Assembly (NCBI GenBank): GCA_023251435.1
Contig: JAHEYU010000048.1
Coordinates: 1-46,306, forward strand
DNA length: 46,306 nt
Source of the DNA: Bacteroidota bacterium
Lineage (GTDB): Bacteria; Bacteroidota; Bacteroidia; Bacteroidales; Prolixibacteraceae
Direction: 5' to 3'
In this document: one piece after another, positions 4,859 through 41,400 of the stretch
Layout: each line of letters begins with the position of its first letter
Position numbering within the stretch: the first letter of the stretch is position 1
Program-made: the position numbers and the translations under genes
Notes under the pieces: generated by a model
What the model saw: only the letters and a program-made list of their open reading frames with translations
What the model was told of the DNA's origin: nothing
Database searches by the model: none

Positions 4859-4866
4859 TGTATAGA

Positions 4867-14700: not shown

Positions 14701-15977
14701 CGGTGATTGTAAATATCGACAAGCAAAAAATAGAGGAGGTTCTTTACAATTTGCTTTCCAACGCATTTAAACATACCGGAGAACATCAGTCGATTATTGT
14801 ATCGCTTGAGCAATTGCCAGCTATTTCAGGAAAAAGTGGTGATAGCCAACAGAAAGTAAAAATTACTGTTTTTAATGAAGGGAAAGATATTTCGGATGAG
14901 GATAAAGATCGAATCTTCGAGCGTTTTTATAAGGTAAGCGAAACGGTTGAAGGCGCAGGAATTGGGCTTTCGTTCTCAAAATCGCTGATTGAAATGCATA
15001 AGGGAAGCATTAATGTTGAATCGGTGGAAGGGAAGGGAGTCGCTTTCCATGTTATATTGCCATTCGATGAAATTGTGGTTAACGAGGTGGAATTAAGCAA
15101 GGTAGCCGACACTTCGCTATGGCCTGAGGATGTATATAATATTAATGAGTTGCCCGAATCTGATAACGAAAGCAAGAACCTGACAATTGTAATTGTTGAA
15201 GACAATGCCGATTTGCGTGCATTTTTGATCCATACTTTATCACGTAACTACATTTGTTACGAAGCAGCCGACGGAAGGGAAGGATATGAAGCTATTGCCA
15301 GAATTATACCTGATATTGTTATTTCGGATGTGATAATGCCCCGGATGAATGGATATGAGCTGTGCGAGAAAGTGAAGGAAAACTCAAAAACCTGTCATAT
15401 TCCGATTATACTTTTAACAGCTATTAATGCATCGGAACATGTTGTTTCGGGCTATGAAAAAGGAGCCGACGCTTATGTGACCAAGCCTTTCGACATGAGC
15501 ATCATTAAAGCTCAGATTTCGAGGCTGATTGCCAATCGTGAATTAATCAGGGAAAAGTACATGACCCATAACTTCATGGTCGAAATATCTACATCGAATG
15601 TTTCGAGAGACGATGAGTTTATTATCAAACTAAGACAGCTCCTGGAGGACAACCTTTCAGAGTCGGATTTTAATGTAAAGAAACTTTCGTCTGATTTAAA
15701 TATCAGCACCACCCATTTGTACCGGAAGCTGAAAGCTCTTACCGGCCTTTCGCCGGTTGAGTTCATAAGGATCTTCAAACTGCAGAAAGCCTGCGAGCTT
15801 TTATCCAACTCAAACCTTTCGATTAAAGAGATCGGATATAGTCTCGGGTTTAATAATCTGTCATACTTCGTAAAGTGCTTCAGGGAGCAATTTCATGTCA
15901 CACCATCAGCTTTCAGGCAAAATGGAATGCCCGAGGTTCCAACAAAAAATAGCACAAATCAATCAGGTGTGTCATAA
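11790..15977 (+). CDS. Hybrid two-component system (HTCS) regulator: sensor propeller, histidine kinase, receiver, AraC output
   Basis: 1395 aa, all parts of a two-component system in one chain. Signal peptide 1-20; periplasmic sensor of reg_prop propeller repeats (for example GKMWFATWSGLASYNG, GNLWVGHQGLGLSILN, NRFWIGTNNGLNLV) to about residue 740; Y_Y_Y domain about 745-810; one membrane helix about 820-842. Then HisKA with NIAHELRTPLSL and phospho-acceptor His873; HATPase with the N box LYNLLSNAFKHT and GAGIGLSFS; a receiver with IVISDVIMPRMNG and phospho-acceptor Asp1180; and an AraC-type HTH at about 1285-1385 (STTHLYRKLKALTGLSPVEF, IKEIGYSLGFNNLSYFVKCF). All key residues are intact. In this family the sensor binds glycan fragments and switches on the adjacent PUL. 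It lies between the divergent enzyme and uptake operons, so it probably controls both. Confidence 0.96.
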   Translation: MKPTYIYIIAFLLFVQSGFGGDFRYLRTNEGLYNGEINSIAQDQSGKMWFATWSGLASYNGYSFQFYKPELGNLLSLSDKKTHKIFIDSKDNLWVASLSGVSVFRNSDQTFHPVNLDGLKKAEYYVFGFFESNGNVMIHCNAGIYLICNPDKGKIDFTARKLKLFNGNAQTFEFIHFMDTYNDKLALVSYADQYSPERILLSELVVTEKDTLIKVQHRIIYNPQINSIAWDKKEDKLYLGTVEGISILSLSNLSITAPVFAKGMVIQNLLLASDHKLYFNSTDPALWYVDLLSLQTGKYLPDPLKIGSLLDNNIMCLFEDFSGNLWVGHQGLGLSILNLNRKAFNSFKRDPSNPKSLNGNIVMCFNGTDRDVFVGMRQGGINVTSKGQNKERFSEFKVLNYRQQPNSGSNFDNVWDIARVSDSLFLVASNGGLAKLEKTTNGWIYGRPNEPPIFSGVVRKVLVDKDRNIWCGTFSQGLRFFPALKNNPSMKSFSFPFDPGNPEGISDKTVLSMLIDSKNRFWIGTNNGLNLVKTPYNQLDLSGRNSPDIKFKQFVSTKPEKNSLNANEINCILEDADGKLWLATQGGGINIMDADSGTISYLTTENGLPGNDVQGILTDKSGIKWVSTNKGLVTINLNSKTKPFTIYSQSDGIQGESFKVNSYYKSPDGEMFFGGDNGFTRFYPDQIRFNPIPPKIGFTNFRISNEIVNIGDTISGGNIMEKAMNELEEIVLPFNKNSFSIGVGVHHYQYPDGNMIRYKLEGFLDRWITIPAATNQYIYFSKVPDGHYTLRVSGVSADNIEATNERILQIRILPPWYRTWYMTTIFLMIVLGMIGGFIYMMVRRQRISFQEKIDAIALENNENKMRFLTNIAHELRTPLSLVIAPIEDMMQNYVNIEPRWKTHINLIYRNSNYLLTLINQIIDFRKLNAGKLKLNLQETDIVLLVKDVVTNFKGLESRRKTNLQISVPAKSVIVNIDKQKIEEVLYNLLSNAFKHTGEHQSIIVSLEQLPAISGKSGDSQQKVKITVFNEGKDISDEDKDRIFERFYKVSETVEGAGIGLSFSKSLIEMHKGSINVESVEGKGVAFHVILPFDEIVVNEVELSKVADTSLWPEDVYNINELPESDNESKNLTIVIVEDNADLRAFLIHTLSRNYICYEAADGREGYEAIARIIPDIVISDVIMPRMNGYELCEKVKENSKTCHIPIILLTAINASEHVVSGYEKGADAYVTKPFDMSIIKAQISRLIANRELIREKYMTHNFMVEISTSNVSRDDEFIIKLRQLLEDNLSESDFNVKKLSSDLNISTTHLYRKLKALTGLSPVEFIRIFKLQKACELLSNSNLSIKEIGYSLGFNNLSYFVKCFREQFHVTPSAFRQNGMPEVPTKNSTNQSGVS

Positions 15978-16128: not shown

Positions 16129-18450
16129 ATGACAAAGAATAAACAACTAGCCTTAATTGCTTTATTGGTGTTATTGTTTTTCGGATGCGAAAAGGACGAT
16201 TATAACAAGTACGATCGTCCCACCTGGCTTGCCGGAAAACTATATACGCAGATAGAAAGCAATCCGGATATTTCCACATTTGCCGCGTTGGTAAAGAAAG
16301 CCGGATACGATTCGATTATTGATGTTTCAGGAAGCTACACTGTTTTTGCTCCTTCAAATGAAGCATTCAAAACTTTCTTTCAGGAAAACCCGAAGTACAA
16401 ATCGGTTGCTGATATGCCAGCTGCAGAAGTCGCCAGACTCGTGAAATATCACCTTGTACAAAATCCCTGGAGTAAAAAGCAACTAATGTCACTTGATGTT
16501 TGGGGATGGATTGATACACTCGATTTAAAAAACAATGTTCCGAAGGGGTACAAACGTGAAACTCTGTTGTTGGGTAAAAACCAGAAATACGGCATGCAAT
16601 GGAGCAAATACAAAAAGCTGAACAGCACTTTAAAGCGTACCAATATAATTGATACTACTTCAACCAGCTGGTACCGCCGTGTATATTCAGATACACGCAA
16701 ATACGCACCGGTTTTCTTTAAAGACTATTTTGATATTTATGATCTGGCTACCTCTGACTTCGAATTTTATTTTGGCCGTCAGATTGTAAGCCCCGCAGAT
16801 CTTTATTACATCAATGGCCGTGTTATCAGTGATGAAATATTTGCTGAAAACGGATTTGTATATGTAATCGACCGCGTGGTTAACCCGCTTAAAAACGGAG
16901 TTGAATTACTGACAGATAAGAGTAAAGGAAATTCGTTTACCGACTATTACAATCTGGTGAATTTATTTGCAGAATTGGAGTACAACGAAAAAGCAACCTT
17001 TGCCCAGCCGGGTGCTGCTCAAGGTCTTAAAGTTGATTCGCTCTTCAATTTAAGTTATCCGGCACTTGTTTTCGACATACACAGCGAAAGAACAAAAGCA
17101 CCACGTGGTACTCAGGGCCTTCCGACAAATGTAACCATCAGATATCATCAGGGTATTATTGCTCCTACCAACGAGGCTTTAAAACAACTTGAAGCACAGT
17201 ATCTTGCCGGTGGAAATAACTGGGGAAGTATTGACGCTGCTCCTGAAAACATTAAACGTATTATTGCCAACACCAGTTTATCGATCAATCCGATTTATCT
17301 GACCGACCTTCAAAAAGGATTTCTGAATGGTGAGTCCGACAAAATTACGGTTGATGAATCGAGTATCGTTCAAAAAGAGTACGGAAGCAACTGTACCTTC
17401 ATTGGTGTAAACAAACCTGTTGTTCCACGCGCATTTAGCAGTGTTACAGGTCCGGTTTATACACGGAAAGGTTACTCAAAAATAATGTATGCCATCGAGA
17501 AATCGGGTTTATTGTCGGCATTGAAAAGGAAAGATGCCAATTATTCTTTTTATGTCGAATCTGATGCCTCAACTTCTGCTGACTCCTCTTTAATATATGA
17601 TTCGTTCTCAGAGCGTTTTACTGCTGTTACAATGTATCCGGCAATCAGAACGTTTCAGATTCCAGTTGAAGACTTGCGTATTTTATTGCTCAATCATATC
17701 GGAACCGATCAGCCAAAGGGACTTGCAAGAAAAGAATTTATAAAAAATCTGGCCGGAAATTATTTGATTGTAAATAATGTAACCAAAGAGGTTAGTGGAA
17801 CAGGATCTTCTACCTTCGGATATCAGGGTTCAAAGCAGGTAAAAGTAATTCCAACCAAAATTAGTACCAACAGCGATAACGGATCGACTTACGATATAAG
17901 CAACTGGTTTAATTTCACTGTAAGCGATCTTTACAATACTATTTCATCAAGCTATCCAAAGTTCCATGCCTTGCTTAAAAAAGCAGGATACAGCCAGGAT
18001 AAATTGCTCAGATATAGTTTCATGTCCGACAATCAGAATTATACTGTTTTTGCACCCAGCGACTCTATTCTCAGTCTTACAAATACCGATGCAATGAACC
18101 TCAAAGAACTTCAGGACTTTGTTTTACTGCATTTCATTCAGGGAGATCTTATTTTCACTGATGGAAATAAACAGGCCGGTTATTACGAGACATGCAGAGT
18201 AGATGAAAGTTCAACACCTTTTACAACTGTTAATACTAAAATCAGAATTGAACCGGGTATTGATAAAATCAGCTTCCCGCTAAAGAATGGTTCGCCTGCA
18301 GTTGTTGTGAATGAATCGGCCAAAACAAACTTTCTTACGTCACGAAATTTAAGTACAACCGGAACGGAAGTGTTTACAAATTGTGTGACAACCGGTGTTA
18401 TTCATGAACTCAAAAAGGTATTGACCATTGGTGAAGTAACCAGACAGTAA
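16129..18450 (+). CDS. Multi-FAS1 (fasciclin) surface lipoprotein
   Basis: 773 aa. Signal peptide with lipobox FFGC (Cys20). The residues after the Cys (EKDD) are acidic/basic as in the Bacteroidota lipoprotein export signal, pointing to the cell surface. FAS1-type modules are recognised by their SxFAxLVxKAGYD and YTVFAPSNEAF segments. The first (about 33-265) has a large insertion. A second (about 285-440) is weak, with IIAPTNEAL. A third is at about 447-590, and a fourth at about 595-770 with FHALLKKAGY, NYTVFAPSDS, LHFIQGD and GVIHELKKVL. FAS1 domains mediate adhesion or carbohydrate binding. First gene of the uptake operon, 45 nt before SusC. Likely a surface glycan-binding protein (inference). 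I see no enzymatic motif. Confidence 0.88.
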   Translation: MTKNKQLALIALLVLLFFGCEKDDYNKYDRPTWLAGKLYTQIESNPDISTFAALVKKAGYDSIIDVSGSYTVFAPSNEAFKTFFQENPKYKSVADMPAAEVARLVKYHLVQNPWSKKQLMSLDVWGWIDTLDLKNNVPKGYKRETLLLGKNQKYGMQWSKYKKLNSTLKRTNIIDTTSTSWYRRVYSDTRKYAPVFFKDYFDIYDLATSDFEFYFGRQIVSPADLYYINGRVISDEIFAENGFVYVIDRVVNPLKNGVELLTDKSKGNSFTDYYNLVNLFAELEYNEKATFAQPGAAQGLKVDSLFNLSYPALVFDIHSERTKAPRGTQGLPTNVTIRYHQGIIAPTNEALKQLEAQYLAGGNNWGSIDAAPENIKRIIANTSLSINPIYLTDLQKGFLNGESDKITVDESSIVQKEYGSNCTFIGVNKPVVPRAFSSVTGPVYTRKGYSKIMYAIEKSGLLSALKRKDANYSFYVESDASTSADSSLIYDSFSERFTAVTMYPAIRTFQIPVEDLRILLLNHIGTDQPKGLARKEFIKNLAGNYLIVNNVTKEVSGTGSSTFGYQGSKQVKVIPTKISTNSDNGSTYDISNWFNFTVSDLYNTISSSYPKFHALLKKAGYSQDKLLRYSFMSDNQNYTVFAPSDSILSLTNTDAMNLKELQDFVLLHFIQGDLIFTDGNKQAGYYETCRVDESSTPFTTVNTKIRIEPGIDKISFPLKNGSPAVVVNESAKTNFLTSRNLSTTGTEVFTNCVTTGVIHELKKVLTIGEVTRQ

Positions 18451-18495
18451 CCCAGATAATATTTGAATATTTTAAACCTAAGGTTTTTGAACAAA

Positions 18496-21400
18496 ATGAA
18501 AAAAATCAAAAAAACCATAATTCTGATTCTCGCGATTTGCAGTTTTATCGGGGCCAATGCTCAGACCAAAACCACCATTCGTGGTAAAGTGATCGATCAG
18601 AAGGATAAAGAGGCAGTTATTGGTGCAACAGTTATTGAGTCGGATAAAGATAACCGTGTTGTAAACGGTACTATTACAGATATCGACGGTAACTTTGTTT
18701 ATCAGATGAAAAATCCGGAGAATACCATGAAAGTGAGTGTGATCGGATATAATACAAAAACATTCAAGCCCAATCCGCTGAAAGCTGTTGTAATTGAACT
18801 TGTTTCTTCAGACATTGAGCTGGATCAGGTAACTGTTACAGCCAAGGCAAAATCTGATAACTCGTTAACAAATATTGATGACCGCGACAGGGCTTCGTCG
18901 AGTGTGAAAGTTGATCTGATGCAAATGAAAGATGCCGGTATCACATCGGCTGCCGACGCTCTTCAGGGAAAAGTATCGGGACTTGATATTATCAGCGCAT
19001 CGGGTGACCCGGGTTCGGGTTCGCAAATTGTTATCCGTGGTTTAAGTTCTATGGGAAATAACAAACCGCTGATCGTTATCGATGGTATTTCGCAGGACAA
19101 TGTTCCTTCGAGCTTCGACCTTAGTTCGGCCGACTCACAGGATATCAGTAACATGATCAATATCGCCCTTCAGGATATTAAATCGATCGAGGTACTGAAA
19201 GATGCCGCTTCTACAGCTGTTTACGGTTCGAAAGGTGCCGACGGGGTTTTGCTCATCGAAACTTATCGCGGAAGAATGGGAAAAGTACAGTTCGATTATA
19301 CCTATAAAAACAGTATGAACTTCCAGCCACCGGCAATCCCCATGTTGAATGGTGATGAGTACGTGACACTTCAGCTGGAACAATGGCACAACAGCCGCGG
19401 TGTATTCGATCTTCCACGCGAAATTGCCTACGACAGAGATTATCCCGATTTTTATAACTATTCGGCCAACACCGACTGGTTGGGCGCTATTACCCAGAAC
19501 TCGATTACCAACGACCACTATTTTAAGATCTCGGGCGGGGGCGAAAAAACAAGGTATTTTACTTCTTTCAGTTATGTTGACGAAGGTGGGACCACTATTA
19601 ATACCGGTTCAAAACGTTTTTCAACCCGCGTAAACCTCGACTATTTCCTTTCTCAGAAATTGTTGTTTACAGTTCAGTTTAACTATTCTAACAACAAAAC
19701 TGATGGTAATATTAATATTAATGGCCGAAATATCAGGCAAATGGCATATCTGAAAGCTCCAAACATGAGTATTTGGGAACACGATGCCGATGGAAACCTG
19801 ACAGGTGAATATTTTACCCGTAATTTCGATAAAACTTCGAATTATCAGGGTGACGGATATGGATATTTCAACCCGGTTGCTGTTGCCAATCTTGGAAAGA
19901 GCGACGTTTCGGAGAACATGCTCGAAAACTCTTTCAAGTTAAAATATACGATCAAAGACTGGTTGATTTTTAAGGAAACAGTTTCATTCCAATACACCGG
20001 TAAAAAATCGAACACTTATCTTCCGTACAATGCCATTGGTTCCGACTGGCTGGCATGGACAGTAAACAAGGCCGAAGAAAACAACAGCCTTTATTCAGCT
20101 TTTAAAACTGAAAGCCAGTTTGTGTTCTATGTGCCTTTTACATCAACCGATCATTTGTTATCTGGTACAGCTACCTGGGCAACCAATCAATCGAGCGACG
20201 AAGGTATGAATATCCAGAGTAACCGTATCCCGAGTACCAATATTCAGGACCCGGCTGTTGGATCTCAGATTAACTGGATTAGCTCTGGTTCAAGTCAGAA
20301 AAGTGATCTTGGAGCTTTATTAAGCCTTAACTACAAGTATAAAGACCGCTATATGTTTCAGGGTAGTTACAGGGCCGATGCCAACTCTGCGTTTGGTGCT
20401 GCCAATCGCTGGGGTACATTCAAAGGAATCTCAGGAGGATGGCGTTTCTCTGATGAACCTTTTCTCGATGCATGGAATAGCTGGATGAGCGATTGTATGT
20501 TTCGCATCAGCTGGGGTACTTCGGGTCGTCCGCCATGGAACTCTTATGCCCGCTATTCAACTTACGAAACAACCAATCCGGGTAATTACATCACCAACCC
20601 GGCAATCGTTCCAACCAGCGTACAGTTGGATGACCTTAGATGGGAAAGTATCGCATCAACCAATATGGGGCTTGAGATAAACTTGTTTAAAGACAGATTA
20701 TTCCTTGAAGCTGATGTCTATAATAAGGTTACAACCGATTTGCTTTTTACAGATTACAGTATTCCTACTTCATCAGGCTTTACCCAGCTCAAATTCCTTA
20801 ATGGAGGGGAGTTGACCAATAAAGGCTGGGAATTTATGGTCAATTACAAAATTGTGCGTACGAAAGACTGGCTGGTAACAGTTGATTTTAACACTTCGCA
20901 GAATATCAATTCATTTACAAAGTTGCCCGAAAATTTCAATACCGAAAAATCAACTTCAATTGGTAACGGAGAGTATCCGAAACGTGTTGTTGTTGGCGAG
21001 CCTATTGGATCGTTCTTCGGATTCAGGTATCAGGGTGTTTGGGCATCTGATGAAGATGTGGTTGCCCGGGATGCTGAAGGTAACAATTTATACGACAGTG
21101 AAAATCGTCCGATTCCGGTAACTTATAAAGGAACTTACCAGTTCAAAGGCGGAGATGCCAAATATGAAGACATCAATCATGATGGTCAGATCGATTTGAA
21201 CGACGTAGTATATATTGGCGACTCGAACCCCGAATTTGTGGGCGGTTTCGGATCATCATTAAAATACAAAAATTTCGATATTTCATTCCAGTTCCATTAT
21301 CGTGTCGGATTTGACATTATTAATATGATTGCACTTCAAACCGAAGGTATGGACGGACGAAATAACCAGAGCAAGGCTGTACTTAGTCGCTGGAGAGTTC

Positions 21401-21732
21401 AGGGACAAAACGAAGTTGGCTTATTGCCACGAGCTTATATGGGGCATCCTGCAAACAATCTTGGTTCAGACCGTTACGTTGAGAGAGGTGATTTTATGCG
21501 ATTAAACAATGTGAAACTTGGTTATCGCTTAAGTCAGGAGTTATGTAATAAATTGAATTTGCAGAGCGCAAGTTTCTCATTAAGTGCACGTAAATTATTC
21601 ACCTTTACCAATTATTCCGGTCAGGATCCTGAAGTTGGACAGAATGCTGCTGATCCATTCTGGATTGGTGCTGATTATGCAAATACGCCTCCACCTAAAA
21701 TGGTAACACTAAGTTTGTCAGTTGGATTTTAA
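18496..21732 (+). CDS. SusC/RagA-family TonB-dependent outer-membrane transporter (first copy)
   Basis: 1078 aa from the ATG at 18496; a TTG 33 nt upstream is in frame, but the ATG directly precedes a standard signal peptide (MKKIKKTIILILAICSFIGANAQ). N-terminal carboxypeptidase-regulatory-like domain about 26-110 (IRGKVIDQKDKEAVIGATV). Plug domain about 130-260 with IVIRGLSSMGNNKPLIVIDG and the SusC-specific IEVLKDAASTAVYGSKGADGV. A 22-strand barrel follows, ending in aromatic LSLSVGF. It imports oligosaccharides using TonB energy and pairs with the SusD lid encoded 11 nt downstream. Second gene of the operon. Confidence 0.96.
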   Translation: MKKIKKTIILILAICSFIGANAQTKTTIRGKVIDQKDKEAVIGATVIESDKDNRVVNGTITDIDGNFVYQMKNPENTMKVSVIGYNTKTFKPNPLKAVVIELVSSDIELDQVTVTAKAKSDNSLTNIDDRDRASSSVKVDLMQMKDAGITSAADALQGKVSGLDIISASGDPGSGSQIVIRGLSSMGNNKPLIVIDGISQDNVPSSFDLSSADSQDISNMINIALQDIKSIEVLKDAASTAVYGSKGADGVLLIETYRGRMGKVQFDYTYKNSMNFQPPAIPMLNGDEYVTLQLEQWHNSRGVFDLPREIAYDRDYPDFYNYSANTDWLGAITQNSITNDHYFKISGGGEKTRYFTSFSYVDEGGTTINTGSKRFSTRVNLDYFLSQKLLFTVQFNYSNNKTDGNININGRNIRQMAYLKAPNMSIWEHDADGNLTGEYFTRNFDKTSNYQGDGYGYFNPVAVANLGKSDVSENMLENSFKLKYTIKDWLIFKETVSFQYTGKKSNTYLPYNAIGSDWLAWTVNKAEENNSLYSAFKTESQFVFYVPFTSTDHLLSGTATWATNQSSDEGMNIQSNRIPSTNIQDPAVGSQINWISSGSSQKSDLGALLSLNYKYKDRYMFQGSYRADANSAFGAANRWGTFKGISGGWRFSDEPFLDAWNSWMSDCMFRISWGTSGRPPWNSYARYSTYETTNPGNYITNPAIVPTSVQLDDLRWESIASTNMGLEINLFKDRLFLEADVYNKVTTDLLFTDYSIPTSSGFTQLKFLNGGELTNKGWEFMVNYKIVRTKDWLVTVDFNTSQNINSFTKLPENFNTEKSTSIGNGEYPKRVVVGEPIGSFFGFRYQGVWASDEDVVARDAEGNNLYDSENRPIPVTYKGTYQFKGGDAKYEDINHDGQIDLNDVVYIGDSNPEFVGGFGSSLKYKNFDISFQFHYRVGFDIINMIALQTEGMDGRNNQSKAVLSRWRVQGQNEVGLLPRAYMGHPANNLGSDRYVERGDFMRLNNVKLGYRLSQELCNKLNLQSASFSLSARKLFTFTNYSGQDPEVGQNAADPFWIGADYANTPPPKMVTLSLSVGF

Positions 21733-21743
21733 TTTGAACGAAT

Positions 21744-23219
21744 ATGAAAAAGATATTTAAAATACGGTTTATACTTTTATTCTTTGCTTTAGCAATGCAA
21801 TTTAGCTGTTCAAATTATCTGGAACTGATACCTCCAAATGGTTTGGTACGTGAAGAGTTTTGGCAGACAAAAGAAGATGTGGAAGCAGTTTTAATGGGTG
21901 CCTACCAGTCGTTCTCTCAAATGGACGGAGTTTTGTTTGCTTATGGTGAAGCCCGTGGTGATATGGTTACCTCTCATGCCAACTGGAAAGGATCGAACGA
22001 AAACAGATTGATGGAAAGTAACATCTATCCTGAAAACGGACTTTGCAATTGGGAGCGGTTTTATAAGGTGATCAACTATTGTAACGAAGTAATTAAAAAT
22101 GCTCCGGAAGTACAGGCTGTTGATAACACGTTTACCGATTTTCAGTTGAAAGGCTATTTGTCTGAAGCACATTTTCTTCGGAGCCTGAGTTACTTTTATC
22201 TTGTTCGCATTTTTAAAGATGTTCCGCTTGTATTGGAGCCTTCGGAAAGTGATGTAGTAGATTTTTATCTGCCCCAGACCAAAGGTGAAGATGTGTTGAA
22301 GGCCATGCTAGGCTACCTGAATGAATACCGGCAATATGCTACCGATGGTTATAAAACCCTCGACGAAGTAAAAGGGCGTGCAACCAAAGCCGCTTTCGAT
22401 GCTTTACTTGCCGATATCTCGCTTTGGAATTTCGATTATGCTGCAACGATTGCCTATGCCGACAGAATTCTTTCGAACAAAAACTTTGTGTTGATGCCAA
22501 GTGCCAGATGGTTCGAATTGTATTATCCCGGCAACTCACTCGAAAGTATTTTTGAGTTCCAGTTCAATAATAAATACAGTCAGAATAACAGCACTTACAA
22601 CTTTACCAACCGGTATGCCAATCAATACCTTCCAAGTCAGCGTGCAGCCGAGATTTTTGCACGTAAATACACTGTTGAACTTGTAAGAGGCGAAGATTTG
22701 TCGATTACGAAATTAAGCGAAGACAATTATCTGATATGGAAATATGCCGGAAGGGCACCCGACGGAAAAACACAACGTTCGGGTATCGACCAAAACAGCT
22801 GTAACTGGATTGTTTATCGTCTTGCCGATATATATCTGATGAAAGCCGAAGCACTGTCGCAACTTAGCAGATTTGACGAGGCTGCCAATTTATTAAATAT
22901 AATCAGGAGCCGTGCCAATGTTACCCCGATGGTTATTGGAAACTCTACTGTTGCTTTCGAAGACGCAATCATGGACGAACGTGCCCTTGAATTGGCTTTC
23001 GAAGGAAAACGCTGGTTTGATTTACTCCGTATGGGACGTCGTAACAATTATAGCCGTAAGGATAAACTGGTTGAAATAATTATTAAAAACGTTCCTTCAA
23101 CTCAGAAACGTATTTTGTCAGCTAAACTTACCAATCCGCTGGGTTGGTACCTGCCGGTTTACAAAAGCGAAATAGAGCGTAATAAAAACCTGGTTCAAAA
23201 CCCCTACTATATTTTTTAA
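21744..23219 (+). CDS. SusD/RagB-family surface glycan-binding lipoprotein (first copy)
   Basis: 491 aa. Lipobox QFSC (Cys22) followed by SNYLELIPPNGL. Early motif REEFWQTKEDVEAVLMGAYQ, TPR-type helices (LSEAHFLRSLSYFYLVRIFKDVPLV) and the characteristic C-terminal segment IMDERALELAFEGKRWFDLLRMG. It is of ordinary family length. Forms the extracellular lid of the preceding SusC and captures oligosaccharides. It is separated by 11 nt from SusC and 3 nt from the next FAS1 gene. Confidence 0.95.
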   Translation: MKKIFKIRFILLFFALAMQFSCSNYLELIPPNGLVREEFWQTKEDVEAVLMGAYQSFSQMDGVLFAYGEARGDMVTSHANWKGSNENRLMESNIYPENGLCNWERFYKVINYCNEVIKNAPEVQAVDNTFTDFQLKGYLSEAHFLRSLSYFYLVRIFKDVPLVLEPSESDVVDFYLPQTKGEDVLKAMLGYLNEYRQYATDGYKTLDEVKGRATKAAFDALLADISLWNFDYAATIAYADRILSNKNFVLMPSARWFELYYPGNSLESIFEFQFNNKYSQNNSTYNFTNRYANQYLPSQRAAEIFARKYTVELVRGEDLSITKLSEDNYLIWKYAGRAPDGKTQRSGIDQNSCNWIVYRLADIYLMKAEALSQLSRFDEAANLLNIIRSRANVTPMVIGNSTVAFEDAIMDERALELAFEGKRWFDLLRMGRRNNYSRKDKLVEIIIKNVPSTQKRILSAKLTNPLGWYLPVYKSEIERNKNLVQNPYYIF

Positions 23220-23222
23220 CCA

Positions 23223-24788
23223 ATGAAAAAAACTTCTATCATATTAAGCTTACTGGTTGCACTTTTTCTGCAATACAGTTGTAAAAAATCAGATGTTCTT
23301 GATCCCGGATTTAAGGACATGCAGAAGTTTACTATCTATGGCTATCTTATGGAAAACGAGGAAGAATATTCAAATTTCCTTGAGATACTTAAAGCTGCCG
23401 GATTAGATAAGACACTAAGCGCTTATAATCCCGGAGGTAAAACCGGGGGTGTTGGATATACATTGTTTGTTCCGGATAATAAGGCGGTCGAAAACTTTAT
23501 TAAAGAAAGCGGACAATATGCAACATTGGCCGATTTATTAAAAGATAAAGAATATGTTGGTGCACTGGCCAGATACCATGTATTAAATCAAAGTGTTGCT
23601 TCAAACGAATTCCCTTTCGGTACGTTTACGCAGCCAACGCTATCACAGGATTACCTGAATGTGAATTTTGTGATCGGTAAGGATACTACCTATTACAAGA
23701 TCAACAACCAGGCTCAGGTTATAAAAGCAAATATTGAAACATCAAACGGCTACATTCAGGTAATTGGAACCATGCTGAAGCCCATTACTTTAAATAGTTA
23801 TGGATGGCTAAAAAAGAATACCAATTATTCAATTTTTATTGCGGCACTCGAAGCTACAGGAATTGATCGTACGATTGATGTTGACATGAAGCTTGAAAAT
23901 CAGACGCTAAGACCTTTCACTATTTTGGTTGAACCTGATTCGATTTATAAAAAGAGAAATATTAATTCGTTTGCTGATTTGGCTCAGTTTGTCAGCCCCG
24001 GCAGGACAGACTATAAAACTACAGGTAATCCGATGAATTTATTTGTGGGTTATCATCTACTTACCGGAAGTTACTTTCTTGACGATTTGGCAACAAGGGC
24101 CAGTAACTACAATACATTTGCCGATGTGCCGCTTAATATTAATGGTTTGGGTCTTGATATCGTAATTAATAAATACAAAGAAATTTTTGTAAGCGCCAAA
24201 AAAGATACGACCGACTTTGTTGGCATGTATTACGACGAAAGCAACATAAACACACAGAGTGGTGCCATTCACTTTATCAACCAGGTTTTAAGACCACAGA
24301 TTCCATCAAGAGCCATCGTAACTTATGAATTTTACGAAGAAGCTATACTGAATGAATACAGAAATACTGGCGGTACTTTCCCTATTGAAAACCCTGAACT
24401 ATTAAACACTATTACCTGGTCGGGCGGGGAACTTTCTTTTGTAGAATCGCTTGATGACACCGAAAGGGCCTGGGGTAGAGATTACTTACAAATTTTTGGC
24501 GACTTCACCATCACCTATACTATTCCTAAAATTATTCAGGGGAAATATGATGTTTATCTACATGCCAATGCATTTAGTACACAGAATGCTTTGGTTGAAC
24601 TTTCGATCGATGGAATTAAACTTGGTGGGTTGCTCGACCTGACAAAAGGGGGTAATGCAAATAATCCATATTTCAGGTTTAAAGTTGGAACCGTTGATTT
24701 TAAAAAGTACGACAGTCACGCGGTACAAGTTAAATCATTGATTCCAGGTCGGTTTATATGGGATTATATCAGATTCGAACCAATTTAA
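23223..24788 (+). CDS. FAS1 lipoprotein with C-terminal beta-sandwich (second FAS1 gene)
   Basis: 521 aa. Signal peptide with lipobox QYSC (Cys20). Two FAS1-type modules. The first is at about 40-200 (YSNFLEILKAAGLDKTL, YTLFVPDNKAVENF, LARYHVL); the second at about 205-365 (YSIFIAALEATGIDRTI, TILVEPDSIY, GYHLLTGSY, GAIHFINQVL). The last 150 residues (about 375-521) form a distinct region (SFVESLDDTERAWGRDYLQI, GKYDVYLHANAF, IWDYIRFEPI) that looks like a CBM-type jelly roll with the closing D-Y-I-R-F pattern. Together this resembles a surface glycan-binding protein of a PUL. Starts 3 nt after SusD, so translation is probably coupled. No catalytic motifs seen. Confidence 0.85.
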   Translation: MKKTSIILSLLVALFLQYSCKKSDVLDPGFKDMQKFTIYGYLMENEEEYSNFLEILKAAGLDKTLSAYNPGGKTGGVGYTLFVPDNKAVENFIKESGQYATLADLLKDKEYVGALARYHVLNQSVASNEFPFGTFTQPTLSQDYLNVNFVIGKDTTYYKINNQAQVIKANIETSNGYIQVIGTMLKPITLNSYGWLKKNTNYSIFIAALEATGIDRTIDVDMKLENQTLRPFTILVEPDSIYKKRNINSFADLAQFVSPGRTDYKTTGNPMNLFVGYHLLTGSYFLDDLATRASNYNTFADVPLNINGLGLDIVINKYKEIFVSAKKDTTDFVGMYYDESNINTQSGAIHFINQVLRPQIPSRAIVTYEFYEEAILNEYRNTGGTFPIENPELLNTITWSGGELSFVESLDDTERAWGRDYLQIFGDFTITYTIPKIIQGKYDVYLHANAFSTQNALVELSIDGIKLGGLLDLTKGGNANNPYFRFKVGTVDFKKYDSHAVQVKSLIPGRFIWDYIRFEPI

Positions 24789-24800
24789 ACTATTCATATA

Positions 24801-26345
24801 ATGAGATCTATATTCAAAATTATAATCGCTGCCATCGTTGTTGCCGGATTTGGGTGTACCGAAAAATGGGACGAGCACTATAATAATCAACCCGAAACCA
24901 TCAATACAAATGTTTGGGATGCTATCAAAGGCAAAAGCGAGTTGTCGAGTTTTGTTACCTTAATGGAGAAATACAAATTCGATACACTCTTTTTGTCAGA
25001 CGATACCTACACTTTGTTTGTTCCCGATAACAATGCAATGGCAAAAATGGTTATGTCGCAGGTTAGCGATACCACCATTTTAAACTATCATATTTCGAGA
25101 CATTACATTCAACCTGTCGATATACAGGGAAAACGTAAGTTGCAAACTTTGGCTTTAAAATATTCGACATTCGAGAATGCTGCCGGAAAACCTACTTATG
25201 ACGGAATTAAAATTAATTTCGAAAGTCCGTTATATGTTAATGGTAAATATTTTGTCATGAGTGATGTGGCAACACCAAGACTTAATCTCTATGAATATTT
25301 TGCAGTAAATAATCGCTACCTTAAAACCTACATTGATAAGAAGGACTCTATTATAATTGATAAGGAAAAGAGCAGACCAATCGGTTTTGATGATGAAGGA
25401 AATACCGTTTATGACACGATTGCAATCAAGGTGAATAAATTCGAAATGGCTTTTTTCCCTGTTTCTAAAGAATATCGTAAGTGGACTGCCACTTTTGTAT
25501 TTCCAAAAACAGCCAACTACGAAAATGCATTGACTGCGATGGCTCAAAGTCTGGGTGGCAATTTTGTCGATTACAAAAATATTCCGATAAAATGGCAGGA
25601 AGATATTCTGATTCCATACCTGCTTAAACAGGGAACTTACCTGAATATGCTTGAGCCTTTCGAAATAAAAGATAAAAGTGTACTGTCGTATAAACGTAAA
25701 TACAGTATGCTGAACATACAAGGCGACAGTATAATTGTTGATTATAAACCTACCGATCCATATTTATGCAGTAACGGCATATTTTACGACTATACCAATT
25801 TCGTTGTTCCCGTAAAACTCTATTCCGACACAGTTAAAATGGAAGGAGAATCGTTGATCAAAACTACCGGGATCAATCGTTATGCATGGAGGGATAGTGT
25901 TAAGGTAACAAGCTCAGCTTCGTTTACTGTTTTAAAAGACTATATCAAAGGAGCTTCAAAAGACTCGATTTTGGTTGTTAATTTCCTGAAAGGTTTTAAA
26001 GGAACCTACAAAGTTGAATTCAAATCAACCAATCTGTTCCCCCGGAAATACCGTATGGAGGTTCTTACCCACATGGATATTGGAGGTATATATGACATTT
26101 ACGTCAACAATGTTTTGGTCAAAACCTTTGATTATTACGACTATGTGAGGACCAGAGGATTGATTAAGAGCGTAACTGGCGCTACTTTTGTCCCAAAAGG
26201 CAGGTACAATAAATTTGACTGCTATGTTACCAATATCGTAGATTATGGCAAGCCGCAGATCCGTATCGAATATAAAGGACCTGGCAACGCTCCCGGCAAC
26301 GGGCTGGTAATCGATGCTCTATATTTTATTCCGGTCGCTAATTAA
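24801..26345 (+). CDS. FAS1-like lipoprotein with C-terminal jelly-roll domain (third FAS1 gene)
   Basis: 514 aa. Signal peptide with lipobox GFGC (Cys19) followed by TEKWDEHYNN. One clear FAS1 module near 35-170 (LSSFVTLMEKYKFDTLFLSD, YTLFVPDNNAMAKM, LNYHISRHYIQPVDI); a second, degenerate one lies at about 170-340 (NALTAMAQSLGGNFVDYKN). The C-terminal third (about 370-514) is a beta-sandwich with YKVEFKSTNLFPRKYRMEV, GIYDIYVNNVLV and the closing LVIDALYFIPV, like a carbohydrate-binding jelly roll. It has the same FAS1-plus-jelly-roll layout as the gene before it, but little direct sequence identity by eye. Twelve nt from the preceding gene, 55 nt before the second SusC. Confidence 0.8.
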   Translation: MRSIFKIIIAAIVVAGFGCTEKWDEHYNNQPETINTNVWDAIKGKSELSSFVTLMEKYKFDTLFLSDDTYTLFVPDNNAMAKMVMSQVSDTTILNYHISRHYIQPVDIQGKRKLQTLALKYSTFENAAGKPTYDGIKINFESPLYVNGKYFVMSDVATPRLNLYEYFAVNNRYLKTYIDKKDSIIIDKEKSRPIGFDDEGNTVYDTIAIKVNKFEMAFFPVSKEYRKWTATFVFPKTANYENALTAMAQSLGGNFVDYKNIPIKWQEDILIPYLLKQGTYLNMLEPFEIKDKSVLSYKRKYSMLNIQGDSIIVDYKPTDPYLCSNGIFYDYTNFVVPVKLYSDTVKMEGESLIKTTGINRYAWRDSVKVTSSASFTVLKDYIKGASKDSILVVNFLKGFKGTYKVEFKSTNLFPRKYRMEVLTHMDIGGIYDIYVNNVLVKTFDYYDYVRTRGLIKSVTGATFVPKGRYNKFDCYVTNIVDYGKPQIRIEYKGPGNAPGNGLVIDALYFIPVAN

Positions 26346-26400
26346 TTAATAAGATAAACCAGCTAACTAATCTGATTATAATCTGGTCTCAATCTATAAA

Positions 26401-29400
26401 ATGAAAATTGATACAATGATTAATAACCTATTCACCACTGCAAACTGGAAGAAAGCTGCGCTTATAGTTCCTGTGTTGCTTTTGAGTTTATTTTCATCGG
26501 AGGCGCAAAGCCAAATGCCGAATGACTCCATTGTTGTAAAGGGGGTAATTGTTTCAGGAACAAATACACCATTGTCTAACATTACCATAAGTATCGAGGG
26601 GTCAAGACAGTTACCTGCCGTTACCAACGAAGCTGGAGAATTTAGCATTAAAGCTGGAGCCAGTGATAAATGGTTAATTATTTCACCGGTAAGTGATTAT
26701 AAAACCAAACGCGTATTTCTGAATAACAGAAGCGAATTGAAGGTTTACCTATCGGCAAACGACATGTCAGCGGGTGATGATCCTGTAACCATTCTATCGC
26801 AAAAAACAATCAAGAAAGACATTGTAGCTTCCTATTTCGATTTGAAATCGACAGATGGCTACAAGACTTCGGCGTTTTCGATCGACGAATTTATGCAGGG
26901 GAAAACACCCGGTATTAATGTTGTTCGCAAAGATGGAACGCCCGGATCAGGCGCAATTGTTTCGGTGCGAGGTGTTAATTCAATCATGACCAATACCCAA
27001 CCGCTGTATATCGTTGATGGAATCCCGATGGAAAATCCCGGATTGTTTGGATCAAACCTGGATGGTTATTCCTACAACCCTCTGATGGCAATCAATACAC
27101 TTGATATTTCGAAAGTTACAATCGTTAAAGATCCAACTATTACATCAAGTTACGGATCCAAGGCATCCAATGGCGTTGTCTTTGTCGAAACACTTGACCC
27201 AAGTGCAACTCAAACTTCTATTGACGTTGATTTGCGTACAGGTTATTCTATGGCACCTGCCAACCAGATTCCACAGATGAATGCAGGGCAGCACAAAACT
27301 TTCGCCAATGAGGTACTATTCTCTTCAGGAATGTTTGAAGAAAATATCAAATTACGATACCCAAATTTATTTTTGGAAAGTGATGATGATCGTTTTATTG
27401 ACTACCAGCATAATACTAACTGGCAAGACAAGATTTTTGAGAATTCGACCTTTACCAATGTTAATCTGAAAGTTAAAGGGGGAGATGCTATTGCCCGTTA
27501 CGGTCTTTCTTTCGGTTACACAACCAGCGATGGTATTGTAAAATCGACTGGTTACGATAGTTATAATCTAAGGTTTGTCAGCCGTCTGAATATTTTCAGA
27601 TGGTTAAGAATGAATTCCGGAGTATCTCTGAATTACAGTACTGCGAATTTGAAAGAATCAGCAAAATTGCCACAAACAAACCCAATTATGGCGAGTCTGA
27701 GCAAATCACCGATGCTGAATCCATACCAGTATGACCTTCAGGGTAATATGCTTACAACTTTGAGCGAGGTTGACGAACTAGGTGTAAGTAATCCGGTGGC
27801 GATCATTGAAAAATTTGTTGGAAGAAACAGTAACTACCACTTTATTTCGACCATGGGATTTGAAGCTACGCTTAATAAAGACCTGATGTTGAATTCGAAC
27901 TTCGGTTTGACTTATAATGCAATGAAAGAGCAGATTTTTATGCCTAATCATGGTATGGCACATTATTATAACGACGAGGCATATAACGCAGCTAAATCTA
28001 CCACTAACTACCTTTTGTCGTTCTATAATAATACCTATCTATCGTACAAAAAAGTAATTAATAAAGTACACAATATTTCTTCAAATACAGGTGTAAATCT
28101 GCTGACAAACAATTATCAACTTGATTGGGCGCTTACTATGAATGCTCACCAAAATGATGAATATCAGTCTCTTCAGGACGGAAATAACAACTTGCGCCGA
28201 ATAGGCGGACAAAATCGTACCTGGAACTGGATATCGTTGTACGAAAACCTGAATTACAGTTTCAAGGACAAGTACATGGTGTCGGCAAGTGTTTCTCTTG
28301 ATGGTTCGTCCAGAGTTGGAAATACTGCTATCAATACTTTGAAAATTGCTGATAATCCATTTGGTTTGTTTTATTCGGCCGGTTTGGGATGGCGTTTGTC
28401 GAGCGAGTCTTTCCTGAACGAAATTAGCTGGCTGGATGAATTTAAATTACGAGCCTCTTATGGAAAATCTGGGAACGACGATATCGGTGAATCGAATGCC
28501 TCGGATTATTATCAATCGGTAAAATTCCGCGAAACTGTTGGTTTATATCCGGCAATTATTCCAAATCAGGATTTGAGTTACGAAACAGTAAGTCAGTTAA
28601 ACACTGGTGTCGATCTGGCTTTGATGGGAAGTAGAATTCGTTTAACTTTCGATTTGTTCAAATCTACTACCAACGATATGCTTATTCTTACTCCGATGAA
28701 ATCGTATCTTGGATATAGCTATCGTCCCGAAAATGGTGGTAAAATGCAGAATAACGGAATCGAGCTAAATGCTTTCCTCCGCATTGTCGATGGAAAATCA
28801 TTCAAATGGGATGTTCAGGGAAATTATGCTAAAATTAAGAACGAAATCACTGAACTGAAAGGCGATAAATTAGTAAGTCTGGTTGAAGGTGGCGAAATTG
28901 TAAACATGGTAGGCGAATCTGCCAATAGCTTTTATGGCTACATTTTTGAAGGTGTTTACACTACTGCTGCTGAGGCACAATCTGCCAATTTGTTGAATGA
29001 TAAACTAGCAAAATTTAATGCAGGTGATGCAAAATTTGTTGATATATCTGGTTCCGAAAACAAACCTGATGGAATCATCAACCAATACGACAAAACAGTG
29101 ATCGGTTCATCGATGCCTGATTTCTTCGGAGGTTTCCAGAATACATTTATTTACAAAAACTGGACATTAAATACCCATATCAATTTTGTTTCAGGAAACG
29201 AAGTTTTCAATTACGTGCGCTACAGAAACGAAAAAATGACAGGACTTGAAAATCAAAGCGCCAGTGTTTTAAGCAGATGGCAATACGACGGACAGGTCAC
29301 CAATGTACCCCGTGCATTGTGGAACGACCCGGTTGGAAACTCTGCTTTCTCGACCCGTTGGATTGAAGATGGATCTTATATCAGGATTCAAAACATTTCG

Positions 29401-29604
29401 TTGGGATACCGTATTCCAAATAAATTCCTGACATTTCGTAATGCAGAGTTCTACGTTTCTGCCAACAATGTGCTGACGGTGTCTAAATACCTGGGTTATG
29501 ATCCTGAATTTGCATATTCCTATTCACATGCCGAACAAGGAATCGATTATGGTCAGACTCCACAGTCAAGACAATTTATTTTTGGTATTAAATTAGGATT
29601 ATAA
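26401..29604 (+). CDS. SusC/RagA-family TonB-dependent outer-membrane transporter (second copy)
   Basis: 1067 aa from ATG 26401 (an in-frame ATG at 26416 is the alternative). The signal peptide is preceded by a longer polar N-terminus and ends near residue 36 (SSEAQSQ). Carboxypeptidase-regulatory-like domain about 44-120. Plug about 150-265 with GAIVSVRGVNSIMTNTQPLY and VTIVKDPTITSSYGSKASNGV, where the usual DAAATAIYG text of SusC is altered. The barrel ends in FIFGIKLGL rather than an aromatic terminal residue. It is clearly diverged from the first SusC, so the pair is not a recent duplication. It probably imports a different fragment or the same fragment in a different size range (inference). 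Confidence 0.95.
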   Translation: MKIDTMINNLFTTANWKKAALIVPVLLLSLFSSEAQSQMPNDSIVVKGVIVSGTNTPLSNITISIEGSRQLPAVTNEAGEFSIKAGASDKWLIISPVSDYKTKRVFLNNRSELKVYLSANDMSAGDDPVTILSQKTIKKDIVASYFDLKSTDGYKTSAFSIDEFMQGKTPGINVVRKDGTPGSGAIVSVRGVNSIMTNTQPLYIVDGIPMENPGLFGSNLDGYSYNPLMAINTLDISKVTIVKDPTITSSYGSKASNGVVFVETLDPSATQTSIDVDLRTGYSMAPANQIPQMNAGQHKTFANEVLFSSGMFEENIKLRYPNLFLESDDDRFIDYQHNTNWQDKIFENSTFTNVNLKVKGGDAIARYGLSFGYTTSDGIVKSTGYDSYNLRFVSRLNIFRWLRMNSGVSLNYSTANLKESAKLPQTNPIMASLSKSPMLNPYQYDLQGNMLTTLSEVDELGVSNPVAIIEKFVGRNSNYHFISTMGFEATLNKDLMLNSNFGLTYNAMKEQIFMPNHGMAHYYNDEAYNAAKSTTNYLLSFYNNTYLSYKKVINKVHNISSNTGVNLLTNNYQLDWALTMNAHQNDEYQSLQDGNNNLRRIGGQNRTWNWISLYENLNYSFKDKYMVSASVSLDGSSRVGNTAINTLKIADNPFGLFYSAGLGWRLSSESFLNEISWLDEFKLRASYGKSGNDDIGESNASDYYQSVKFRETVGLYPAIIPNQDLSYETVSQLNTGVDLALMGSRIRLTFDLFKSTTNDMLILTPMKSYLGYSYRPENGGKMQNNGIELNAFLRIVDGKSFKWDVQGNYAKIKNEITELKGDKLVSLVEGGEIVNMVGESANSFYGYIFEGVYTTAAEAQSANLLNDKLAKFNAGDAKFVDISGSENKPDGIINQYDKTVIGSSMPDFFGGFQNTFIYKNWTLNTHINFVSGNEVFNYVRYRNEKMTGLENQSASVLSRWQYDGQVTNVPRALWNDPVGNSAFSTRWIEDGSYIRIQNISLGYRIPNKFLTFRNAEFYVSANNVLTVSKYLGYDPEFAYSYSHAEQGIDYGQTPQSRQFIFGIKLGL

Positions 29605-29620
29605 AAAATTACCTAGAAAT

Positions 29621-31492
29621 ATGAAAATCATGCGTAAAAATCTGAGATATTCCGTTGTTGTTATTTCAGTCTTGATATCACTGATGATTCTGCCTTCCTG
29701 TGAGGATTTCCTGAATCCGGATCAGGAGCTGAACCTGACTCAGGATCAATTATTTGATGACTGGTACGAATATCGTGCTGTTGCGATTGGACTTTACGGA
29801 TTACAGCAGAAATTGGTTGAACAGCTTATGGTGCTGGGCGAGCTTAGGGCTGATTTGCTTACAGTAACTCCCAATGCTGATGCCGACTTAATTGAAATCT
29901 ATAATTTCAAGGCATCGAAGAATAATAAATATGCCGATCCAACCAATTTTTTTAAGCTGATATCTGCTTGTAATAGTTTTATCAGCGTATTGAAGGAAAA
30001 ACATCCTGAAGTTCTGGATAAAAATATTGCTGCTTCGAACTATGATAAGTTGTATGGTGAAGCATTAACAATGCGTGCCTGGGCTTATTTTAATGCTGCC
30101 AGAATTTATGGAAAAGTTCCTGTAATTCACGAATCAATTACTTCAGTAGAGGAAATCGAGAAATATTTGAATTCTTCGTCAACTTTCATCGACGATGTAA
30201 ATATTGTATTCGGAAGAGACGGATTTTACAACGATACAACTTACAAAAAACCAATTACCCTCGAAAAACAATTCTATGATTTAGACATGGTAATCAGGGT
30301 GTTCAGTAAACAATTGGAACAAGAAGTGAAAGCAGTTGGTGTTAATCATTACATCGACAACAACGATAAATCGTGGGAAGTTACAGTTTGGAACACTTTC
30401 GCATGGCACGCTTTACTTGGGCAAATGTACCTTACTTCAGGCGATTTAACAAAAGCTGCCAGCCACCTTAATGCAATAGCATTTACTACTTCAGATAATT
30501 ACAGATATCAGTTAAGTGCTTCACTGGCAAATGGGTTGTGGCGAAATATCTTCAAAGATGTTGACATTACTGAGCATATTTATGTGATGTGGTTTAATAA
30601 GGCGAATCAGCAACAAAACGACTTTCAGCGTTTATTTGATATAAGGGCACCTCACCAGTATATGCTAAAACCAACCAAATCAGCGATCCATTTATGGGAA
30701 GGTCTCTGGAGAGGGTATAATTTGATAGTAGATCTGGCAAAACCCGAATTAACAAGGCTTAGCGCAACATCACCAGGAATGCCCGGTGATATGTTCCGTG
30801 GATATAATACTTCATATCAATATGTAAATAATGAAGTTGTAATGCACCCTGCTATGTATCAGTCCATGTTATATTTTAAATCGCAAAACGACGTGCGAAG
30901 CTATACTTCTATGATGGAAGGAGTTGATACGGTAGTTTATAAATATTCGGTTGATAAAAATGAGTACGATCAGGATGCCAACTTCATCGTTTACCGCGCC
31001 GCCGGCATTCAGCTGTATCTTGCCGAAATTTATACGTGGTGGGCTTTCGAACGTAATGGCTTGATCAGTACTTTCACCACCAATGCAGTAAATATTGTAA
31101 ACGACGGAAGTAACTACAACGTGTTGGCCGACCGCAGTCAGTTGGGTGTGCGCGGTCGAGTCGGATATACCGGAACTTACGGTGGAATTCAGGTGGGTAA
31201 CATTAACTATATTCATAATCCATTTACAAATCAGGTGACTGGTTACACGAATCTTACCGGTAACCTGCTGGCAAAGCAACTTTACCTCGAAGAATTAATA
31301 ATGGACGAAAAAGCAAGGGAACTTGCTTACGAAGGTGAGCGTTTTTACGATTTGATCCGCGTTGCAAAACGCAGAAATGATCCCTCGTTTCTGGCTAAAA
31401 AAGTCTCTGCTAAATATCCTGCAGGTCAACGCGAAGCCATGTACAAACTTTTGCTTGACGAAAAAAACTGGTACATCAATATTTTTGATTAA
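29621..31492 (+). CDS. SusD/RagB-family lipoprotein (second copy, longer than usual)
   Basis: 623 aa, about 130 longer than the first SusD. Lipobox LPSC (Cys27) followed by EDFLNPDQEL. SusD hallmarks: EYRAVAIGLYGLQQ, GELRADLLTV, YGEALTMRAWAYFNAARIYGKVPVI, a middle TPR region (WHALLGQMYLTSGDLTKAASHL) and the C-terminal IMDEKARELAYEGERFYDLIRVAKR. Extra length lies mostly between residues 180 and 400. It lies 16 nt after the second SusC. Last gene before a strong terminator, so it closes the uptake operon. Confidence 0.94.
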   Translation: MKIMRKNLRYSVVVISVLISLMILPSCEDFLNPDQELNLTQDQLFDDWYEYRAVAIGLYGLQQKLVEQLMVLGELRADLLTVTPNADADLIEIYNFKASKNNKYADPTNFFKLISACNSFISVLKEKHPEVLDKNIAASNYDKLYGEALTMRAWAYFNAARIYGKVPVIHESITSVEEIEKYLNSSSTFIDDVNIVFGRDGFYNDTTYKKPITLEKQFYDLDMVIRVFSKQLEQEVKAVGVNHYIDNNDKSWEVTVWNTFAWHALLGQMYLTSGDLTKAASHLNAIAFTTSDNYRYQLSASLANGLWRNIFKDVDITEHIYVMWFNKANQQQNDFQRLFDIRAPHQYMLKPTKSAIHLWEGLWRGYNLIVDLAKPELTRLSATSPGMPGDMFRGYNTSYQYVNNEVVMHPAMYQSMLYFKSQNDVRSYTSMMEGVDTVVYKYSVDKNEYDQDANFIVYRAAGIQLYLAEIYTWWAFERNGLISTFTTNAVNIVNDGSNYNVLADRSQLGVRGRVGYTGTYGGIQVGNINYIHNPFTNQVTGYTNLTGNLLAKQLYLEELIMDEKARELAYEGERFYDLIRVAKRRNDPSFLAKKVSAKYPAGQREAMYKLLLDEKNWYINIFD

Positions 31493-31517: not shown

Positions 31518-31557
31518 AAATTGGTAATCTGATCATTTTCGGGTTACCAATTTTTTT
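31518..31557 (+). terminator. Intrinsic terminator closing the SusCD/FAS1 operon
   Basis: Ten-bp inverted repeat, aaattggtaa (31518-31527) and ttaccaattt (31544-31553), with a 16-nt loop and a T run through 31557. It begins about 25 nt after the stop of the second SusD gene. Confidence 0.85.
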
Positions 31558-31688: not shown

Positions 31689-31694
31689 GGCAAA

Positions 31695-34585: not shown

Positions 34586-34618
34586 TAATTGGCAGATACT
34601 TAATTTACAAAAACATAA

Positions 34619-35308: not shown

Positions 35309-35332
35309 GTTTTGCCAATCTGTATTATAAAA

Positions 35333-41393: not shown

Positions 41394-41400
41394 TATTTTA

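Follow-up and report, generated by a model that had tools for sequence, protein, structure and literature searches.

The closest described relatives of the system reported here are the levan and dextran utilisomes of Bacteroides thetaiotaomicron, which comprise SusC, SusD and surface lipoproteins from one locus. According to the accessible part of the source, one SusCD pair is present as a homodimer, together with a glycoside hydrolase (GH) and a surface glycan-binding protein (SGBP) with Ig domains; the levan SGBP consists of two Ig-like domains followed by a C-terminal binding domain, and sits on the lip of SusC (PMC7618045). Here we describe a block of seven genes from Prolixibacteraceae (Bacteroidota) that likewise combines SusC and SusD with further lipoproteins, but differs from these utilisomes by two diverged SusCD pairs, FAS1 domains as proposed stalks, three such lipoproteins, and the lack of a GH among its genes. 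The block lies on contig JAHEYU010000048.1 (assembly GCA_023251435.1), whose 46,306 nt were analysed as a whole and are referred to as the window. With a probability of roughly 0.6, we consider the seven genes to be one conserved outer-membrane module for the capture and uptake of glycans by a dual SusCD system, in which two of the FAS1 lipoproteins, F2 and F3, would act as SGBPs.

FAS1 is described as an adhesion fold in the part of PMC6032426 available to us. The one printed record found of a FAS1 protein in a polysaccharide utilization locus (PUL) is a figure legend in PMC4891872, for a cellulose/hemicellulose-like PUL of Gramella portivictoriae with SusD and GH5. The accessible sections of PMC10199937 report strong transcription of a FAS1 gene and, in another context, describe a PUL that contains two SusCD pairs, while those of PMC7661554, PMC6032426 and PMC12611786 contain nothing that bears on a SusCD-FAS1 module. 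No description of a double SusCD-FAS1 module was found in the literature searched, most subscription journals being outside reach. SusCD-type uptake is a known kind of system; new here is the recognition of the block as an old conserved module.

The seven genes are all located on one strand between positions 16129 and 31492:

16129-18450, + strand: F1, FAS1 lipoprotein, proposed scaffold (Pfam, hhalign, lipobox)
18463 (TTG) or 18499 (ATG) to 21732, + strand: SusC1, TonB-dependent transporter (Pfam, NCBIfam, tree)
21744-23219, + strand: SusD1, lid lipoprotein (Pfam, tree)
23223-24788, + strand: F2, two FAS1 domains and a C-terminal beta-sandwich, proposed SGBP (Pfam, model, Foldseek, hhalign)
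24801-26345, + strand: F3, FAS1 domain, weak second FAS1 domain and C-terminal beta-sandwich (Pfam, model, Foldseek)
26401-29604, + strand: SusC2, second transporter (Pfam, NCBIfam, tree)
29621-31492, + strand: SusD2, second lid lipoprotein (Pfam, tree)

The gaps between the genes are 12 (48 if SusC1 starts at the ATG), 11, 3, 12, 55 and 16 nt. These coordinates agree with a preliminary description of this DNA, made from the sequence alone, which had given the order as FAS1, SusC, SusD, FAS1, FAS1-like, SusC, SusD with gaps of 3-55 nt.

All three FAS1 proteins score above the curated Pfam cut-off for PF02469 (FAS1) of 22 bits: F1 with 84.9 bits (6.5e-24), F2 with 93.3 bits (1.7e-26), and F3 with 37.0 bits (4.5e-9). 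An hhalign search that started from the first FAS1 domain of F2 detected four FAS1 stretches in F1, a number not recognised in the preliminary description: about 38-253 with a long insert (75 matched columns), 340-397 (54 columns), 449-595, and 607-767, with probabilities of 99.3, 96.8, 90.6 and 98.2, respectively. F2 and F3 contain two stretches each, the second one of F3 being weak (probability 74.9), and the homology between these two proteins spans their full length (profile-profile match, probability 98.9). Judged from these alignments, the block encodes about eight FAS1 domains. Profile searches of the PDB with F1, F2 and F3 gave the animal matrix proteins TGFBIp and periostin as best matches; every match was either named as a FAS1 protein or a known entry of FAS1 type, and none was named as part of a SusCD system. 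TGFBIp and periostin resemble F1 in having four FAS1 domains, which does not imply a common role.

AlphaFold2 models of F2 (predicted local distance difference test, pLDDT, 87.5; 39 sequences in the alignment) and F3 (pLDDT 82.1; 21 sequences) support a beta-sandwich at the end of both proteins. Foldseek again returned TGFBIp and periostin as best matches for the two models, and the lower-ranked matches included 7ehg (titled MiXBM), the carbohydrate-binding modules (CBMs) CBM35 2w1w and CBM6E 8j3x, and other jelly-roll proteins. Since the C-terminal third of the F2 model is formed nearly completely by strands, we place the CBM-type matches there. Pfam gave no CBM match in F1, F2 or F3, and no glycan-binding domain was found for F1, the fold matches covering the F2 and F3 models. 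The FAS1 fold assumed in the preliminary description is thus confirmed by sequence profiles for F1-F3 and by structure models for F2 and F3, and jelly-roll-like ends on two of the proteins were recovered by AlphaFold2 and Foldseek; the profile search that it had suggested against FAS1 and CBM families was positive for the former and negative for the latter.

A lipobox-like Cys follows the signal peptide of F1, F2 and F3 in the window (for F2 by a looser pattern), in line with the earlier view that all three are lipoproteins. By the strict or the loose pattern, such a Cys was present in F1 of 23, F2 of 24 and F3 of 24 out of 24 cassettes. Acidic residues after the lipoprotein Cys form a surface-export motif; past the lipobox Cys such residues are only moderately frequent, the count covering F1-F3 only.

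The two transporter pairs were identified by Pfam and NCBIfam. Both SusC1 and SusC2 contain the Plug domain and match TIGR04056 with 692 and 618 bits, respectively (cut-off 368), and each is directly followed by a SusD-type lipoprotein (gaps of 11 and 16 nt) with SusD_RagB (PF07980) and SusD-like_3 (PF14322) domains. The pairs are diverged, as claimed before: SusC1 and SusC2 share 27% identity over 965 columns, and SusD1 and SusD2 can be aligned in pieces only, with 24-33% identity. For phylogeny, FastTree was applied to chosen rows, with long branches flagged (83 rows for SusC, 80 for SusD). The SusC outgroup was made of 31 rows from the same genome (the 30 best places, one of them entered twice) and four flanking SusCs; that for SusD included the 28 SusDs adjoining those SusC places. 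All 24 SusC1 rows form a clade (support 100), as do the 24 SusC2 rows (99), and the two clades are sisters (97); the next branch outside (99) is a SusC on contig C132 of the same genome. In the SusD tree the 24 SusD1 rows form one clade (support 100) and 23 SusD2 rows are found on one side of a branch (89), while the sister relation of the two groups is left undecided.

The block recurs elsewhere in Bacteroidota, which had not been noticed in the preliminary description. Its gene positions (slots) were labelled by BLAST or by hidden Markov models built from the cassettes themselves. An F2 alignment, used to scan contigs, retrieved 44 loci. Most are from Prolixibacteraceae or from Bacteroidota not further specified; distant members are a strain of Cesiribacteraceae (L051) and a metagenome-assembled genome of Cytophagales (L055). 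In 40 of the 44 loci, the F2 match is part of a gene run with SusC/SusD. All seven slots are present in 16 loci, among them three special cases: F3 lies under a longer antisense open reading frame (ORF) in L038 (tblastn), SusC2 is split in L042, and F1 is cut by the contig end in L040. Nine further loci hold the complete six slots of a form that lacks F3 (with split genes in L064), and the remaining 15 runs miss at least one slot, at contig ends in the cases inspected. The four loci with F2 outside of SusC/SusD runs are L049, an F1/F2 pair, L053, L071 and L065. L053 and L071 harbour two F2-type genes in tandem without SusCD, with a GH2 gene just before them in L053.

A scan of 395 genomes of the phylum was limited to three scored candidates for each genome, and its counts are therefore lower bounds. 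Besides the own genome, at least eight F2 places score below 1e-40. They belong to seven genomes from two further families in the same class, and each of the eight is a full seven-gene block with identical gene order; the weaker places G269 and G002 represent the six-gene form. F3-type matches with E <= 1e-10 are limited to nine of the 395 genomes, namely the own genome, the seven genomes with seven-gene blocks, and G151 (a short frame of 150 residues). Within the own family, F2 matches reach E <= 1e-20 in 98 of 140 genomes and E <= 1e-40 in 58. We opened 20 family places, including six orphan places chosen for short frames. At E <= 1e-40 (n = 18) they comprise 12 cassettes, of which eight are complete with seven genes (one with split SusC1), two are cut by contig ends and two have six genes, and six F1/F2 pairs without SusCD; the two places above 1e-40 lack SusCD. 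A general rule that FAS1 goes with SusCD does not hold, since FAS1 is present in 178 of the 395 genomes, often as short single-domain proteins, and 20 of 30 loci from the phylum F2 scan have no SusC/SusD gene within about 1.5 kb on each side.

The genome itself carries FAS1 matches on six contigs. Contig C135 harbours a complete second copy with all seven genes in order (45-61% identity) and its own regulator. Contig C52 contains a shorter third copy, F1-SusC1-SusD1-F2-SusC2 without F3, at 23-39% identity and cut by the contig end, and on C92 (L025, 10620-13550) an F1-like and an F2-like gene are arranged tail to tail without SusCD. On C132 (L027, 8817-15218), SusC and SusD are followed in a row by two lipoproteins, the first with FAS1 and the second with PKD, and GH127 lies nearby. 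This row resembles the block in that a FAS1 lipoprotein directly follows SusD and that, among the SusCs of the own genome, the one of C132 is placed nearest in the tree, but it contains a single SusCD pair and one partial FAS1 match (33 bits); it fits the comparison with SGBPs.

The seven slots have a common history. Among 24 chosen complete cassettes, incomplete ones being left out, correlations of 0.81-0.91 were obtained between the slots for their pairwise identities, the minimum identities being 15-35% per slot. In all seven slots the window is nearest to L028-L030, C135 to L037 or L047, and G253a to G033 rather than to G253b of the same genome, while for the distant cassettes G007, G150, G253b, L051 and L055 the nearest row varies by slot. 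The simplest reading of these sequence comparisons is that a SusCD-FAS1 locus was duplicated once, long ago, and then inherited as a unit.

In contrast to the genes of the block, the neighbours change, a further point beyond the preliminary description. Among 23 complete cassettes, again a chosen set, only 24 of 253 pairs have any of three flanking genes per side in common. L028 is flanked by GH5, C135 by GH31 and DUF4832, and G007 by rhamnogalacturonate-lyase domains, GH2, GH28 and GH115. GH2 and an FGGY kinase lie near the cassette of G033, and GH95, GH106, an isomerase-like TIM barrel and an aldolase-dehydrogenase fusion that of G253a; the kinase, isomerase-like and aldolase-dehydrogenase genes presumably serve rhamnose catabolism. 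Other neighbours are a family-11 rhamnogalacturonan lyase (L192), GH28 (L194), GH116 (L190), GH2 (L198) and a SASA esterase (L199). The six-gene cassettes of G269 and G002 lie near BNR (sialidase-like) proteins and a DHDPS-family lyase, in G269 also near acetylesterase-type, sulfatase and N-acetylneuraminate-epimerase-type genes; the six-gene cassettes L061 and L067 are accompanied by GH5 with CBM6/CBM35, and L063 by alpha-1,3-glucanase domains. The flanking enzyme sets thus appear to be directed at beta-glucan in the window, and at rhamnogalacturonan or sialoglycan elsewhere. The neighbour scans left out G202. Because this gene order is found again in other genomes, next to different neighbours, the arrangement of the block goes beyond chance.

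These data suggest the following picture. SusC1-SusD1 and SusC2-SusD2 would each be a TonB-dependent importer with a lid; a single ancient duplication would have given rise to the two, which have since been passed on jointly. In F2 and F3, the C-terminal CBM-like sandwich may grip the glycan at the tip of a FAS1-FAS1 stalk, which would take the place of the Ig or PKD domains used elsewhere, and both proteins could feed glycan to enzymes and to the SusD lids; we assign the glycan-holding step to them because of fold and position. The levan SGBP, as far as it is described in the accessible text of PMC7618045, likewise combines stalk domains with a C-terminal binding domain. F1, with FAS1 domains but no sandwich, may be the scaffold that ties the importers to F2 and F3, and the choice of polymer would be set by exchangeable nearby enzymes together with divergence of SusD, F2 and F3. 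The likeness to SGBPs with FAS1 in place of Ig modules, which the preliminary description had drawn, is in line with the FAS1-FAS1-sandwich plan of F2 and F3. Its wider idea of an outer-membrane complex for glycan capture agrees in part with our data, namely with FAS1, the lipoprotein signals, the CBM-like sandwich on two of the three proteins, and the PUL-like setting. Since the two SusCs are inherited together, a SusC1-SusC2 heterodimer instead of a homodimer is conceivable. That SusC1-SusD1 and SusC2-SusD2 form an obligate heterodimer, held on the cell surface by the approximately eight FAS1 domains of the three lipoproteins and serving as a plug-in module for differing enzyme sets, is a tentative extension which we consider less likely than not; if correct, it would amount to a new class of uptake machine in the outer membrane.

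Several observations weigh against a single module. The Foldseek table does not give aligned ranges, so that the C-terminal placing of the CBM matches is our own reading. The second SusD of G269 and G002 scores better with the SusD1 than with the SusD2 profile, although the tree places it with SusD2, on a long branch. No clear glycan enzyme was seen among the scanned neighbours of G021, L042, L051, L055 and L188, and a transposase adjoins SusD2 in G343. Since a six-gene form exists, the plan can do without F3. Eight loci (C92, L049, L182-L187) carry F1/F2-like pairs tail to tail without SusCD, in L185 with an ORF of 144 residues between the two genes; the FAS1 proteins are therefore not tied to transport alone, and the pairs suggest that F1 and F2 may also work together without it. 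F2 of the orphan pairs has 373-396 residues, and in seven listed places the match stops at position 352-353 of 517, which suggests that these proteins lack the sandwich. Finally, co-inheritance is also expected from one operon that serves one substrate.

This last point also speaks for two separate SusCD importers that share an operon and a glycan, taking up for instance different chain lengths or side chains, with F1-F3 as free SGBPs and no joint complex. At least seven other contigs of the genome (C4, C8, C25, C68, C123, C126 and C138; 56 of 103 candidates scored) carry SusC genes in tandem, spaced by about 2-3 kb and with no FAS1 hits, so double SusCD pairs are common in this organism. A loose set of proteins, however, would be expected to be shuffled or lost more often than is seen here, where order and content stay constant at minimum slot identities of 15-35% while the neighbours change. 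This argument comes from conservation only; we regard separate importers as unlikely but as a serious competitor of the single module. The FAS1 proteins might instead be adhesins by which the cell attaches to the polymer or to other cells, co-regulated with uptake without taking part in it. The known role of the fold (PMC6032426), the orphan pairs, and the occurrence of FAS1 in many genomes of the phylum, often as short single-domain proteins, would all be in agreement with this. The fixed order of F2 and F3, between and directly after the SusD genes, and their CBM-like end make such a function improbable. The conserved order could also reflect recent horizontal spread of one PUL rather than a functional unit, and co-transfer would indeed produce correlated distances in all slots. 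Given the low minimum identities and the few common flanks, the order is accounted for neither by a recent origin nor by the transfer of an entire PUL, and we consider this explanation highly improbable.

The surroundings of the block in the window are consistent with a role in glycan uptake:

1-7047, - strand: GH5 (cut by the window start), GH44, GH5-CBM6, DUF2961 and GH43-like genes (Pfam)
11790-15977, + strand: hybrid two-component regulator (HTCS; Pfam Reg_prop, Y_Y_Y, HisKA, HATPase_c, Response_reg, HTH_18)
31518-31553, + strand: hairpin and T-run, possible terminator, 25 nt past the SusD2 stop codon
31686-33119, + strand: GH30 glycosidase (Pfam GH30, 1.2e-39), with a lipoprotein-type signal seen by eye

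With SusC, a SusD after each SusC, and glycan enzymes and a regulator nearby, the window has the composition of a PUL. The HTCS is likely the inducer sensor of the locus; regulators of this type are also found beside the cassettes in C135, L028-L034, L037, L190, L192 and L200. The genes at 1-7047, two of which end in type IX secretion system (T9SS) tails, are likely enzymes of the same locus, and both GH5 genes have relatives next to the cassettes of L040 and L041, whereas next to that of L046 a relative of one of them is present. For the gene at 31686-33119, the model for endo-1,6-beta-glucanase reached 155 bits at a cut-off of 700, therefore only membership in the GH30 family is claimed; a GH30-like gene (76%) also lies downstream of the L029 cassette. 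From GH5, GH44 and GH30, the substrate is probably a beta-glucan. The DUF2961 protein (4867-6045, - strand) adjoins the GH43-like gene, and a DUF2961 gene also follows the L043 cassette. A protein of 1,320 residues, which weakly matches the lamin-tail domain and has a T9SS tail, is encoded at 7368-11330 (- strand) and in L021 (4900-8838); a relative with 38% identity lies beside the C135 cassette, and others beside L036, L038 and L046. By eye, positions 33129-42141 contain a run of glycosyltransferase-like, methyltransferase-like and membrane-protein-like genes, which looks unrelated to uptake.

The preliminary description had also named one promoter candidate and a single terminator. Between positions 15000 and 33000, 54 sigma-70-like sites were found versus 54.5 expected from shuffled sequences, and 14 terminator-like sites versus 13.8; the TANNTTTG motif occurs 56 times in the window versus 54 expected. 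As these counts equal chance, the claim was not upheld in this form, and that of an operon rests on spacing and conserved order. The hairpin at 31518-31553 is the longest of the 14 terminator-like sites in these 18 kb (15 pairs, the runner-up having 8), which makes it a plausible transcript end. The GH30 gene, located beyond this hairpin, is perhaps a separate unit.

Solved SusCD assemblies contain one transporter pair with substrate-specific partners. If the seven genes form a module as proposed, part of the uptake machinery of Bacteroidota would be a reusable platform, itself unchanged amid varying sets of enzymes. Bacterial FAS1 domains, for which adhesion is usually the only role named, would thereby obtain a testable job, and the seven-gene block would provide annotators with a recognisable signature.

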